IMG/VR virus record: IMGVR_UViG_3300043772_002064
Coordinates: 1 to 33,672 of that record
Source of the DNA: a virus
DNA length: 33,672 nt
Direction: 5' to 3' (one strand)
Below are positions 3,039-6,565 of the stretch, piece by piece. The notes under the pieces are model-generated. The model did not search any database and was not told where the DNA came from. It was given only the letters and a program-made list of their open reading frames with translations. Each line of letters begins with the position of its first letter. Position 1 is the stretch's first letter. Made by a program: the position numbers and the translations under genes.

Positions 3039-3048
3039 TATAAATATC
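3039..3048 (-). promoter_or_regulatory. Late-type motif GATATTTATA upstream of the neck gene
   Basis: Read on the minus strand this is GATATTTATA, ending 16 bases before the ATG at 3022. It overlaps the stop codon of the upstream SOD-nuclease gene by two bases. The same motif at exactly the same spacing precedes the next minus-strand gene (4567). Confidence 0.5.
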
Positions 3049-4567
3049 AATCTATCTTAAAAACTAAATCACTCTTATTTAAGACAAAATTTCCCTCAAT
3101 AATTTCGGTATTTGAATTATCAAACACATATATTTTTTTTCTATTTGTGAATATTAACCAATCTGTATCATATTCCTTAACGCCACCAGTTTCGATAAAA
3201 ATAACTTTATCCCCATCAACTTTAATATCTTTAAAAGGTTTAACCTGAACAGTCTTTTTACTTCCATTATAAATAATTTCACAATCAACTCCTTGTAATG
3301 TATCACTAAGATTACCAATACTAGCAATCTTTTTAACATTATCATTACCAAGTCTTTCTTTTAATTTTTTAACAACATAGTCTTCGTTAGTATCGCCAAA
3401 CCCACCTGTCTTTTTAACCGTATCCATCAAAGCTTTAAATGTAGATGATTCGGGATTAAAGATTCTATTTTTAAAGTAAGTTATTGCGTTTAACAATCTT
3501 GTAAGTTGTTCCTCATTGTTTTCAACATTAAATGTTATTGGTCTTTTCTTCATTGTGAAAAGAACTTTATTTATGTCGTTAACTAAGATACAAAAACAGG
3601 TATAATTTGTATTAACTCTATTAAATATTGAACGACCGGGTTCTCCCATAAAATCGTATAAACCTCTTAATGTTCCCGGAGCATATTCATTTCTTTTATA
3701 ATAGTTGTCAGGAAATACCTCTGATAAAGTTTTCTCAATCCACTCATTAAAATCTTTCTTAATATTTGGGTACTTGTTAAATAACTCTCTATAAAAAGAG
3801 TTTTCTCTTGTACTACATTTTTCGTCTACCGATTCTGACAAAATAATTCTTCTAAAATAATTTTCGTTTAATGTTGTTTTGGTCTTCATCTCATACATTT
3901 TGTTAACGAATTCCCAATTAACAAAATCCCAAAAACCCTTAATATAATCGTCTCTTTTATTTTTATATTTTAAATAATAAGCATGTTCCCATAAATCTAA
4001 ACCTAGTAAAGGGTAACCACCTCTTTTAATAACATTCATTAGTGGGTTATCTTGATTCGGGGTTGACATAATTTTTAATCTTCCCTTTTTGGTTAAAACA
4101 AGCCACACCCATCCTGAACCAAATCTTTTTTGTGCAACATCTTCAAACCTTGATTTAAAGTTTTTAAATGATTCAAAATGTTTGTTTATTTTTTCTAATA
4201 ATTTTTCTGAGGGGTTTTGTTTTTTTGGGGATAACATCTTCCAAAATAAGGCGTGGTTAAAGGCGCCACCCGCGTTATTTCTAATAACTTTTGGAAATCT
4301 ACTTATTGATTTTACAATTTGTTCAAGTTCCAAATCACCATAATCTTTTTTGGATAAAACGTCATTCAATTTTTTAACATAACCTTTATAATGTTTGTTA
4401 TAATGAACATCCATTGTTTCGGAATCAATGAATTGTTTTAAAGAGGAATAAGAATAGGGTAATTTTTCAATACCGATTTTTTTCATTTCGGTTAATAAAA
4501 AATCCTTACTTTCAGACTTTTGTATTTGTTCTAATAAAACAGATGTTTTTTCTAATATACTTCTCAC
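3047..4567 (-). CDS. Fe/Mn superoxide dismutase fused to a PD-(D/E)XK nuclease-like domain
   Basis: 506-residue two-domain protein. Residues about 35-222 are an Fe/Mn superoxide dismutase. All four metal ligands are visible: H55 (in DVHYNKHY), H105 (in FNHALFW), D191 and H195 (in DLWEHAYY). Second-shell Y63 is also kept. G101 and Q172 (in STPNQDNP) sit where MnSODs, rather than FeSODs, place Gly and Gln, so Mn use is favoured. Residues about 390-485 look like a PD-(D/E)XK nuclease core: E395, D428 in GVD, and Q441-V-K443. The 225-390 linker is unrecognised. The start is GTG; no in-frame ATG lies upstream, and starting at M28 would remove the leader MRSILEKTSVLLEQ. That leader ends in an (L/I)xE site like T4 capsid-targeting peptides. 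A TATTTATG motif lies 16 bases upstream. The SOD call is secure; nuclease activity is inferred. Confidence 0.88.
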   Translation of the reverse strand: MRSILEKTSVLLEQIQKSESKDFLLTEMKKIGIEKLPYSYSSLKQFIDSETMDVHYNKHYKGYVKKLNDVLSKKDYGDLELEQIVKSISRFPKVIRNNAGGAFNHALFWKMLSPKKQNPSEKLLEKINKHFESFKNFKSRFEDVAQKRFGSGWVWLVLTKKGRLKIMSTPNQDNPLMNVIKRGGYPLLGLDLWEHAYYLKYKNKRDDYIKGFWDFVNWEFVNKMYEMKTKTTLNENYFRRIILSESVDEKCSTRENSFYRELFNKYPNIKKDFNEWIEKTLSEVFPDNYYKRNEYAPGTLRGLYDFMGEPGRSIFNRVNTNYTCFCILVNDINKVLFTMKKRPITFNVENNEEQLTRLLNAITYFKNRIFNPESSTFKALMDTVKKTGGFGDTNEDYVVKKLKERLGNDNVKKIASIGNLSDTLQGVDCEIIYNGSKKTVQVKPFKDIKVDGDKVIFIETGGVKEYDTDWLIFTNRKKIYVFDNSNTEIIEGNFVLNKSDLVFKID

Positions 4568-4627: not shown

Positions 4628-4659
4628 TTTGGTAGATTAGAAAACATTTCATATCTTTG
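4628..4659 (+). promoter_or_regulatory. Bacteroidetes-type promoter of the metalloprotease gene
   Basis: TTTG (4628-4631), 20-base spacer, TATCTTTG (4652-4659). This matches the Bacteroidetes -33 TTTG / -7 TAnnTTTG consensus exactly. Only four bases separate the -7 element from the ATG at 4664, so transcription would begin at or very near the start codon, giving a leaderless or nearly leaderless mRNA. Confidence 0.65.
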
Positions 4660-4663
4660 TATT

Positions 4664-5173
4664 ATGAAAACATTATTATTATTTATAACCATTTTATTCG
4701 GTATATCAGTATATTCTCAATCGTATAAAGACACATCTTTAAATGTGAGAATATTAAGAATGGATAATTATGATTCGTTAAAATTACAAAAACATTCTAA
4801 ATTTATTAAAGAAAAATTCGGTTATAAAGTAATTTTACCCGATAACACAATTAAAAGTGAAGATTACTTAACGATAAGTAATTCTTTTATTGATGTTATT
4901 AAATTACTTCAAAATATGTATTGTTATGAAATAACTATTGTTTTTACAAATAATCCTTTATATGAAAGTCCCATATCTTTAAAAGGGGCAACAGATTACG
5001 AAAGAAAGGTAATCATTATTGATGGTAATTTAGATGACATTAATTTAGTTATAATTCATGAGATTGGTCACGTCTTAGGAATACATCATTGTGAAAATAC
5101 TGATTGTATAATGTTTGATAATGCGGTTAAAGAAGAATTTTGTAATAAATGTTTATCTATTTTTAATAGATAA
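4664..5173 (+). CDS. Secreted archaemetzincin-like zinc metalloprotease
   Basis: 169-residue predicted exported protease. Residues 1-18 form a signal peptide (MKT, then LLLFITILFGISV, with likely cleavage after VYS before QS), typical of Bacteroidetes. The catalytic motif HEIGHVLGIHHC (residues 132-143) gives zinc ligands H132, H136 and H142 with base E133. It is followed by CIM (C148, M150) and CNKC (C160, C163). This is the archaemetzincin layout HExxHxxGxxHCx4CxM...CxxC, with a second cysteine zinc site, but the final spacer is shorter (9 rather than the usual about 17). Archaemetzincins are normally cytosolic, so a signal peptide is unusual. The gene has its own host-like promoter and is divergent from the SOD gene, as expected for an acquired accessory gene. 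Substrate unknown; periplasmic or outer-surface action is inferred. Confidence 0.8.
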   Translation: MKTLLLFITILFGISVYSQSYKDTSLNVRILRMDNYDSLKLQKHSKFIKEKFGYKVILPDNTIKSEDYLTISNSFIDVIKLLQNMYCYEITIVFTNNPLYESPISLKGATDYERKVIIIDGNLDDINLVIIHEIGHVLGIHHCENTDCIMFDNAVKEEFCNKCLSIFNR

Positions 5174-5183
5174 AATATTTATT
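5174..5183 (+). promoter_or_regulatory. Late-type motif AATATTTATT before the 458-aa gene
   Basis: AATATTTATT directly follows the metalloprotease stop codon and ends five bases before the ATG at 5189. If it is a -10 element, the transcript would start at about the start codon. Confidence 0.35.
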
Positions 5184-5188
5184 AACAT

Positions 5189-6565
5189 ATGGAAGAAAAA
5201 AAATTTATTAGTGAATTACATAGAATGAAATACCTATTTTCTCATGAGAGAGGTGTGGTTATTTCTGAACAAACAAAAATACCCCAACAATTACCAGATT
5301 CATCGAAAAAACCCTCTAATAAAACTGTTACTAGTCAAGAGACAACTAGTACTAAAAAAGAAGGTAGTGAGACCGTTATATCTAAAACAAGAACTGAAAA
5401 AATAAAATTATCAGAAAGGTTTACCGCAACTTATGATGAAAATAGTGATGACCCAAACCTGTTTTTAAATAGTGCGTATCAAAAAATAATTGATAGGTTA
5501 AATCAAGAAAATCCTGAAAAGTTATCAATATTAATTACAAAGGCAAATATAATCGGAACCGCAAGTAATCAATGGGGTGGTCCAACAAAATATGATTCTG
5601 ATAATAATTACAAATATTTAGGCGGAGAACAGCCTCAAACACCCACTGAAGTTACTTTAGATGGTAGAACAATTAAATTTAACAAAAATTATGGTCTAAA
5701 TAAAACTTTAGCAAATAAAAGAGCGAATAATTTTTGGACTAAACTACTAGTTAAATTACAAACCCCACCTGTTAATCCTCCCGAAAAACCAATAATTAAG
5801 ATGGGTGCTGACGTTACCCCAACTATAAGTCAAATGGTTGTCAATACAGGGGGTCAAAACGATGATGTTAGAGTTCAACAAAAATACCCAAATCCGGGAC
5901 AAACAGTTTTAATTGATTTAGAATTTGTTTATGAAAAAACGAAGACGGAAATCGAAAGGCTTCCTGTAAATATTGAAGAGACTTCAATTAGAACCTCAAC
6001 TCATTGGTGTGATGGAACTGATGGAACCGGGTTTGTCGGAAATTTGGACGCAAAAAAATATTGTTTAGGTAAAAGGGATAAGTCAGCGGATAAAATGAAT
6101 GGTGCTTTTAATACATCTAAACCCAATAATAAATCCACTGAAACTTCACCAAGAATCAAGAGAGTTCCTGTGGGAGTATCAAACCCAGCAAGTGTTAAAG
6201 GTATTAATATATCTGACGTTGATTGGACTAAATCTCAAGTAACTACTATTATGGAATACCCTAATATGGTATCAACTGAACACGATTACATATTTCGTTA
6301 TGAAATGGATTACGGTATTTGGGAGTTTTTTTGGCAAGATTTTAAAATCACTACAATATCAAGAACTCCAAAAAAAGGTCTTGATTGGATTGCCAGTAAG
6401 GTAAAAGATGTTAAAGGTGTTTCACCTGGTGCAATAAAGAATATCTTATCTGATACAAATAGCAAATTTTATATACAAGAATTATTAGTTTGTATGAATT
6501 TAAAGAAGAGTGGTGGAGACGCTTATAGAAAATCTTTTGATTATTATGTTAAACCTTATATTTAG
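5189..6565 (+). CDS. Leader-bearing protein of unknown function with weak OmpA-like stretch
   Basis: 458 residues, not confidently assigned. The first 27 residues (FISELHRMKYLF, then VVISE before Q28) resemble the start of the protein at 31313 and end in an (I/L)xE site, so they may be a cleavable capsid- or virion-targeting leader. Residues 28-75 are Ser/Thr/Lys-rich and look disordered. Residues about 112-190 contain IIGTASN and NKTLANKRAN, which recall the GxA...N..LA..RA pattern of OmpA-like domains, but the match is weak. The C-terminal part is rich in aromatic residues (YGIWEFFWQDF) and has a WCDG and a Cys pair. The last 17 bases overlap the convergent SNF2 helicase gene. A virion protein is the best guess. 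Confidence 0.5.
   Translation: MEEKKFISELHRMKYLFSHERGVVISEQTKIPQQLPDSSKKPSNKTVTSQETTSTKKEGSETVISKTRTEKIKLSERFTATYDENSDDPNLFLNSAYQKIIDRLNQENPEKLSILITKANIIGTASNQWGGPTKYDSDNNYKYLGGEQPQTPTEVTLDGRTIKFNKNYGLNKTLANKRANNFWTKLLVKLQTPPVNPPEKPIIKMGADVTPTISQMVVNTGGQNDDVRVQQKYPNPGQTVLIDLEFVYEKTKTEIERLPVNIEETSIRTSTHWCDGTDGTGFVGNLDAKKYCLGKRDKSADKMNGAFNTSKPNNKSTETSPRIKRVPVGVSNPASVKGINISDVDWTKSQVTTIMEYPNMVSTEHDYIFRYEMDYGIWEFFWQDFKITTISRTPKKGLDWIASKVKDVKGVSPGAIKNILSDTNSKFYIQELLVCMNLKKSGGDAYRKSFDYYVKPYI

Follow-up and report, generated by a model that had tools for sequence, protein, structure and literature searches.

The window analysed here is a whole virus record of 33,672 bases and represents a fragment of a phage genome. 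T4-type genes in it code for a tail sheath, a baseplate hub, a single-strand DNA binding protein and a match to a head-tail adaptor, and its tube gene scores slightly below the Pfam gp19 cut-off. The promoter type, the Q-rule signal-peptide sites and a phage-encoded protein of 1850 aa with a T9SS sorting domain in a related locus (L061) indicate that the host is probably a member of the Bacteroidota. The gene for the 1850-aa protein (L061:363-5915, minus strand; T9SS type A sorting domain, 38.6 bits, cut-off 23) is located two genes downstream of the L061 homologue of the gene described below.

The gene of interest, from its ATG at 4664 to the end of its stop codon at 5173, encodes a 169-residue putative zinc protease (Table 1). 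A sequence-only reading of this DNA had placed the feature at 4628 to 5173, which is correct when 4628 is taken as the start of the promoter, and its H132/E133, CxM (C148-I-M150) and CxxC (C160-N-K-C163) are all present as stated. As that reading also noted, the gene is isolated by strand from its left neighbour, a superoxide dismutase-like gene on the minus strand (3047-4567) whose start is at 4567. The 506-aa dismutase-like protein has its superoxide dismutase domains at residues 34-223, followed by a long C-terminal part without a Pfam match. On the right, the 458-aa protein has an N terminus of the EELNRIKFLLNYExGKxISEQ type, common to proteins encoded at L020:883-2055, L237:637-1803 and L041:4377-5759, which we take to be possibly a capsid-targeting segment, comparable to those of T4 internal proteins.

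Table 1 Features of the protease locus in the window
Feature	Position	Strand	Remarks
Exported archaemetzincin-like zinc protease (predicted)	4664..5173	+	169 aa; profile, alignment, model, fold comparison
Putative host-type promoter (sigma ABfr/sigma A of Bacteroidota)	4628..4659	+	-33 TTTG 4628-4631, N20, -7 box TATCTTTG 4652-4659
Predicted signal peptide, residues 1-18, MKTLLLFITILFGISVYS	4664..4717	+	Predicted cleavage before Q19; Q-rule (excerpt of PMC5837995)
Catalytic zinc site HEIGHVLGIHHC, residues 132-143	5057..5092	+	H, E, G, C invariant in 33/33 aligned proteins
C148-I-M150	5105..5113	+	Second Cys of Cys4 site and Met of Met-turn; alignment
C160-N-K-C163	5141..5152	+	Last two Cys of Cys4 site, 9-residue loop before; alignment
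Protease gene and 458-aa gene, DNA missing in near-identical siblings L218/L219	4593..6529 (approximate)		
Co-inserted 458-aa gene	5189..6565	+	Candidate late motif TATTTAT at 5176-5182

The window protein contains the full archaemetzincin metal-ligand set, HEIGHVLGIHHCx4CIM...CNKC. Residues 132 to 143 (HEIGHVLGIHHC) match the HEXXHXXGXXHC zinc site, and C143-x4-C148-I-M150 provides the CX4CXM motif with the Met-turn. The Pfam M54 profile recognized the protein with an E value of 2.9e-6 and 27.9 bits, above its curated cut-off of 24.4, and the NCBIfam archmetzin model gave 30.9 bits, far below its cut-off of 145. The Pfam M10 (matrixin) profile also exceeded its cut-off (E 1.8e-6, 28.4 bits, cut-off 24), with a match that covers only residues 124-153, around the zinc site common to both families. 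The solved structures nearest by sequence are archaemetzincins (E 1.1e-4). A structure model of the window protein built on the family alignment (mean pLDDT 91) predicts the archaemetzincin fold, with a Z score of 18.6 and an rmsd of 1.9 over 144 residues against archaemetzincin 4axq; the next families by fold among the matches listed, venom and ADAM-type enzymes, reached 13.7. Archaemetzincins thus come first by both sequence and fold, while matrixins are absent among the matches listed, which excludes nothing.

Searches of viral contigs with the window protein and its right neighbor found no relatives. A DNA pattern for the active site, HExGHxxGxxHCx4CxM, succeeded, yielding 65 loci in viral contigs, nearly all of which code for small proteins of the window type. 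Many related viruses carry the same kind of gene. Six loci with a cut gene or no usable start (L003, L006, L007, L027, L035 and L039) were dropped, and the remaining 59, together with the window, were reduced to 34 representatives. A tblastn search with four family proteins (window, L041, L022 and L020) gave no matches in 50,697 phage records, and a literature search on archaemetzincins with phages or viruses, judged by title and abstract, found no paper on phage archaemetzincins.

A phylogeny of phage and cellular archaemetzincins was obtained as a quick maximum-likelihood tree of 98 proteins, in which the cellular set came from genome contigs among the matches listed and the rows outside Bacteroidota were thinned to every second one (31 rows). 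Thirty-one of the 34 phage proteins, including that of the window, form a single phage-only clade (SH-aLRT 99, stem 1.22), and the cellular Bacteroidia proteins fall into separate clades. The window protein pairs with that of L020 (support 96). L013, L015 and L025 fall outside the phage clade and are omitted from the 31.

Eleven positions, H132, E133, G135, H136, G139, H142, C143, C148, M150, C160 and C163, are invariant in 33 aligned proteins (the alignment left out L013), at identities to the window protein of 19-35%. The archaemetzincin domain is thus not a chance motif. The sequence-only reading had proposed an archaemetzincin-like site, and this is borne out by the complete ligands, the M54 score, the 33/33 invariance and the nearest fold. 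The window protein departs from the family in one respect. The published archaemetzincin motif has X17 between Met and CXXC (excerpt of PMC3427221), whereas CNKC is found 9 residues past the Met in the window protein. This spacing is 12 in 24 of the 34 phage proteins and 16-17 in 74 of 78 cellular proteins among the matches listed. The window protein is therefore an archaemetzincin-like variant branch rather than a strict member of the family.

The N terminus of the window protein has a computed hydropathy of 2.31 over 15 residues, followed by VYS and then Q. These features predict a Sec signal peptide of the Bacteroidetes Q-rule type (excerpt of PMC5837995) with a cut before Q19, so that our script-based check agrees with the export signal of the earlier reading. 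A hydrophobic N-terminal stretch is present in 33 of the 34 representatives, including all 31 clade members; the only one without it is L013, outside the clade. The script classified the 33 N termini as anchor-like (24), lipobox (7) or Q-rule (2, the window and L020, the latter with GFS before Q). The lipobox assignment of L012 is open to doubt, given that L019, a close relative, is without the Cys. Anchor, lipobox and Q-rule site are three forms that would all lead to the periplasmic side.

The earlier claim that export is foreign to archaemetzincins did not hold. Of 198 genomes in the Flavobacterium fontis class, 29 contain M54 matches, 27 of them above the cut-off, and 12 of the 17 cellular Bacteroidia archaemetzincins that were read by eye, among the matches listed (L186-L209), look like lipoproteins. 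We thus dropped the idea that export is a novelty of the phage proteins. Nor was there evidence for the suggested action outside the cell: profile searches of the window protein for a T9SS sorting domain found none, and most homologues look membrane-anchored.

The sequence TTTG-N20-TATCTTTG ends 4 nt ahead of the protease ATG. Flavobacterial -7 boxes span positions -12 to -5 (excerpts of PMC9723704 and PMC6847099), and the predicted +1 is thus the A of the ATG at 4664, giving a predicted leaderless mRNA. Such mRNAs account for 5.5% in Flavobacterium psychrophilum (excerpt of PMC9723704). The full promoter pattern has five matches in the window, with 3.6 expected; a match alone is thus weak evidence, and we rejected the in-window count as proof. 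Across the clade, TAHHTTTG is found within 60 nt upstream of 29 of 31 genes, compared with 27 of the 321 other ORFs in these loci (Fisher p 1e-24, the related loci not being independent), and exactly 4 nt before the start in 12 of the 31. Gene starts were chosen by script, except those of L017/L048 and L047, which we placed manually at a Met following a promoter and which therefore slightly favored the promoter count; control ORFs begin at the first ATG, and wrong starts may reduce their motif count. This conservation is strong evidence that the host-type box would function as a promoter. The genes for a T4-type RNA ligase and a phosphoesterase have the host-type box at the same 4-nt distance. 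The 4-nt leaderless layout was dropped as a mark of exported proteins: 10 of the 20 such ORFs with a -33 TTG were classified as exported by the script, and 8 of those 10 are homologues of the protease gene.

A second motif, TATTTAT, is present within 60 nt upstream of 13 of the 21 window genes, e.g., at 5176-5182; among random 60-mers it occurs in 2%, and among shuffled upstream regions in 7.6%. The genes preceded by it include those for the sheath, the tube, the dismutase-like protein and the 458-aa protein, and we regard it as a candidate late promoter in this group of phages. TATTTAT occurs upstream of 89 of the 321 other ORFs, none of which has both motifs (0/321; probability of no overlap 1e-4), and of only 1 of the 31 clade protease genes. 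We read the host-type box and TATTTAT as putative early (host) and late (phage) classes, respectively, a timing suggested by the motifs. With the host box in 29/31 and TATTTAT in 1/31 clade genes, the earlier proposal of a host-type promoter that sets the gene apart from the late genes appears sound.

Comparison with sibling loci showed how the gene is placed. We fetched 80 loci with a related sheath gene, and both flanks align in 32 of them; in 24 of these 32, the dismutase-like and helicase genes are only 26-86 nt apart. In L218 and L219, which encode two proteins 97% and 95% identical to those of the window, the junction gap is 33 nt. The protease gene and the 458-aa gene are thus an insert between late-type genes in the window. 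The L020 junction has the same content, a protease gene and a gene of the 458-aa type, and at the L237 junction a 458-type gene is accompanied by another exported ORF. The latter (L237:1806-2360, minus strand) has a Q-rule signal and a putative host-type promoter 4 nt ahead of its ATG; we do not claim it as a CAP-domain effector (Pfam CAP 18.6, cut-off 21.1; model pLDDT 35). At the other long junction gaps (L270, L274, L275, L289, L293 and L294), the left gene aligns only in part, and we did not treat these as further cases of the insert; late-type ORFs are present in L270, L274, L289 and L293, the four that were read.

L218 shares a 203-kb contig with L017, indicating that this phage has a protease gene elsewhere; the L017 protease is 32% identical to that of the window. 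Between the window and L020, the upstream 100 nt are 88% identical and the protease proteins 36%, as expected of a fast-changing or exchanged gene. Fast change is not special to the protease gene, however, as the neighboring 458-aa type proteins of the two loci have diverged as much (29% identity).

Computation shows, for this locus and its relatives, the fold with its active site complete, the export sequence at the N terminus, the class of promoter, the phage-only clade and the insertion between late-type genes. From them we infer enzyme activity, timing and actual export. Its own bacterial-type promoter and export signal suggest that the protease is made early and sent to the envelope, and the combination of early-type promoter, export and intact active site suggests that it acts on the periplasmic side of the infected cell. 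We consider it probable that the gene encodes an early exported envelope protease. The host RNA polymerase probably transcribes it from its own promoter soon after DNA entry, and the resulting mRNA would be leaderless. Export of the protein is probably by Sec, with a cut before Q19, and the mature product would be a soluble, 151-residue enzyme of archaemetzincin fold in the periplasm, where it may cleave one or several proteins of the envelope or of incoming phages. Most homologues would get to the same side via a membrane anchor or a lipobox.

The target and purpose of the protease are guesses. The T4 Spackle protein (gp61.3), which is made early and located in the periplasm, excludes superinfecting phages (excerpt of PMC7677548), and superinfection exclusion is thus our first guess: by analogy, the protease might close the infected cell to further phages, as Spackle does without proteolysis. 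The whole statement, that of an early, Sec-exported zinc endopeptidase used by a T4-like Bacteroidota phage for superinfection exclusion, is tentative and may well be wrong in part. At least one archaemetzincin has no detectable proteolytic activity (excerpt of PMC3427221), and the metzincin of Maribacter phages belongs to a different type, with no TAnnTTTG box immediately before its gene; both count against it.

Nearly as likely, and itself no better than possible, is that the same early exported protease disarms the host by cutting envelope-stress regulators, membrane-bound defense sensors or periplasmic host proteases. Localization and promoter class would be the same, and fast divergence or exchange between conserved flanks would fit a struggle against a host target that changes no less than one against rival phages. 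The window protein has no match in an anti-phage defense library, which is uninformative for a counter-defense protein. The sequence-only reading had suggested lysis as one possible role. Predicted export to the envelope would suit a lysis or release factor that makes the envelope weaker late in infection, and an archaeal archaemetzincin added externally inhibited the growth of several bacteria (excerpt of PMC4681839). This role is nevertheless unlikely, because the host-type box rather than the candidate late motif precedes the gene (29/31 and 1/31 clade genes, respectively); moreover, no holin or endolysin was recognized beside it in the window.

The archaemetzincin fold might instead serve as a binding domain in a metal-binding, non-proteolytic protein. 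Inactive or non-proteolytic relatives are reported (excerpt of PMC3427221), NCBIfam holds a model for a non-proteolytic archaemetzincin-like protein, and the Cys loop is shortened; yet none of the 33 aligned proteins departs from the catalytic Glu, the three His or the Met, although their identity to the window protein is 19-35%, and we regard this reading as improbable. We give very little credence to processing of phage-encoded exported proteins, for example surface proteins such as the 1850-aa protein of L061 with its T9SS sorting domain: the protease gene does lie near the gene for that protein, but in that one locus only, and no such protein was recognized in the window.

An early exported envelope protease thus remains our preferred reading. 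Extended to the whole phage-only branch, it would make these archaemetzincins early, often leaderless, Sec-exported envelope effectors of Bacteroidota phages, encoded by mobile single genes that lie among late genes, each with a host-type promoter of its own, and using proteolysis to exclude rival phages or to silence the host envelope; we offer this generalization as a doubtful but possible one. Phage action on the Bacteroidota envelope is little known, and an exported protease of early type that recurs among these phages offers a concrete candidate. What archaemetzincins do biologically is poorly known as well, and in phages their role could be studied through a visible phenotype. With the two classes of promoter motif, it may be possible to sort early from late genes in uncultured phages of this group.

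Among known systems, Spackle is likewise made early by a T4-type phage and delivered to the periplasm (excerpt of PMC7677548), a likeness of working principle only. It is not a protease but binds and inhibits the gp5 lysozyme, and common descent with the window protein is not indicated. The closest cultured case is the matrixin-family metalloprotease of Maribacter phages Colly_1 and Molly, also a small metzincin with a lipoprotein-type signal and a fold similar to that of the window protein. Yet it is a separate type, without the archaemetzincin cysteines and with no TAnnTTTG box directly upstream, and tblastn of the window protein against phage records gave no match to it. The lipoprotein-like archaemetzincins of cellular Bacteroidia (e.g., Flavobacterium, L127, L136 and L145) resemble the window protein in being of archaemetzincin type, apparently exported and from the likely host group. 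They differ in forming separate tree clades and in their longer Cys loop of 15-17 residues, and TAnnTTTG is found within 75 nt at 1 of the 17 loci read, among the matches listed. Finally, the archaemetzincins of known structure (M54; AfAmzA 3zvs/4axq, MkAmzA 2x7m, and 3lmc) share the ligands HExxHxxGxxHC, Cx4CxM and CxxC with the window protein and match its model with Z scores of 16-18.6. The window protein is distinguished from them by a Met-CxxC loop of 9 residues instead of 17, a predicted signal peptide, and its place in a phage-only clade with a long stem.
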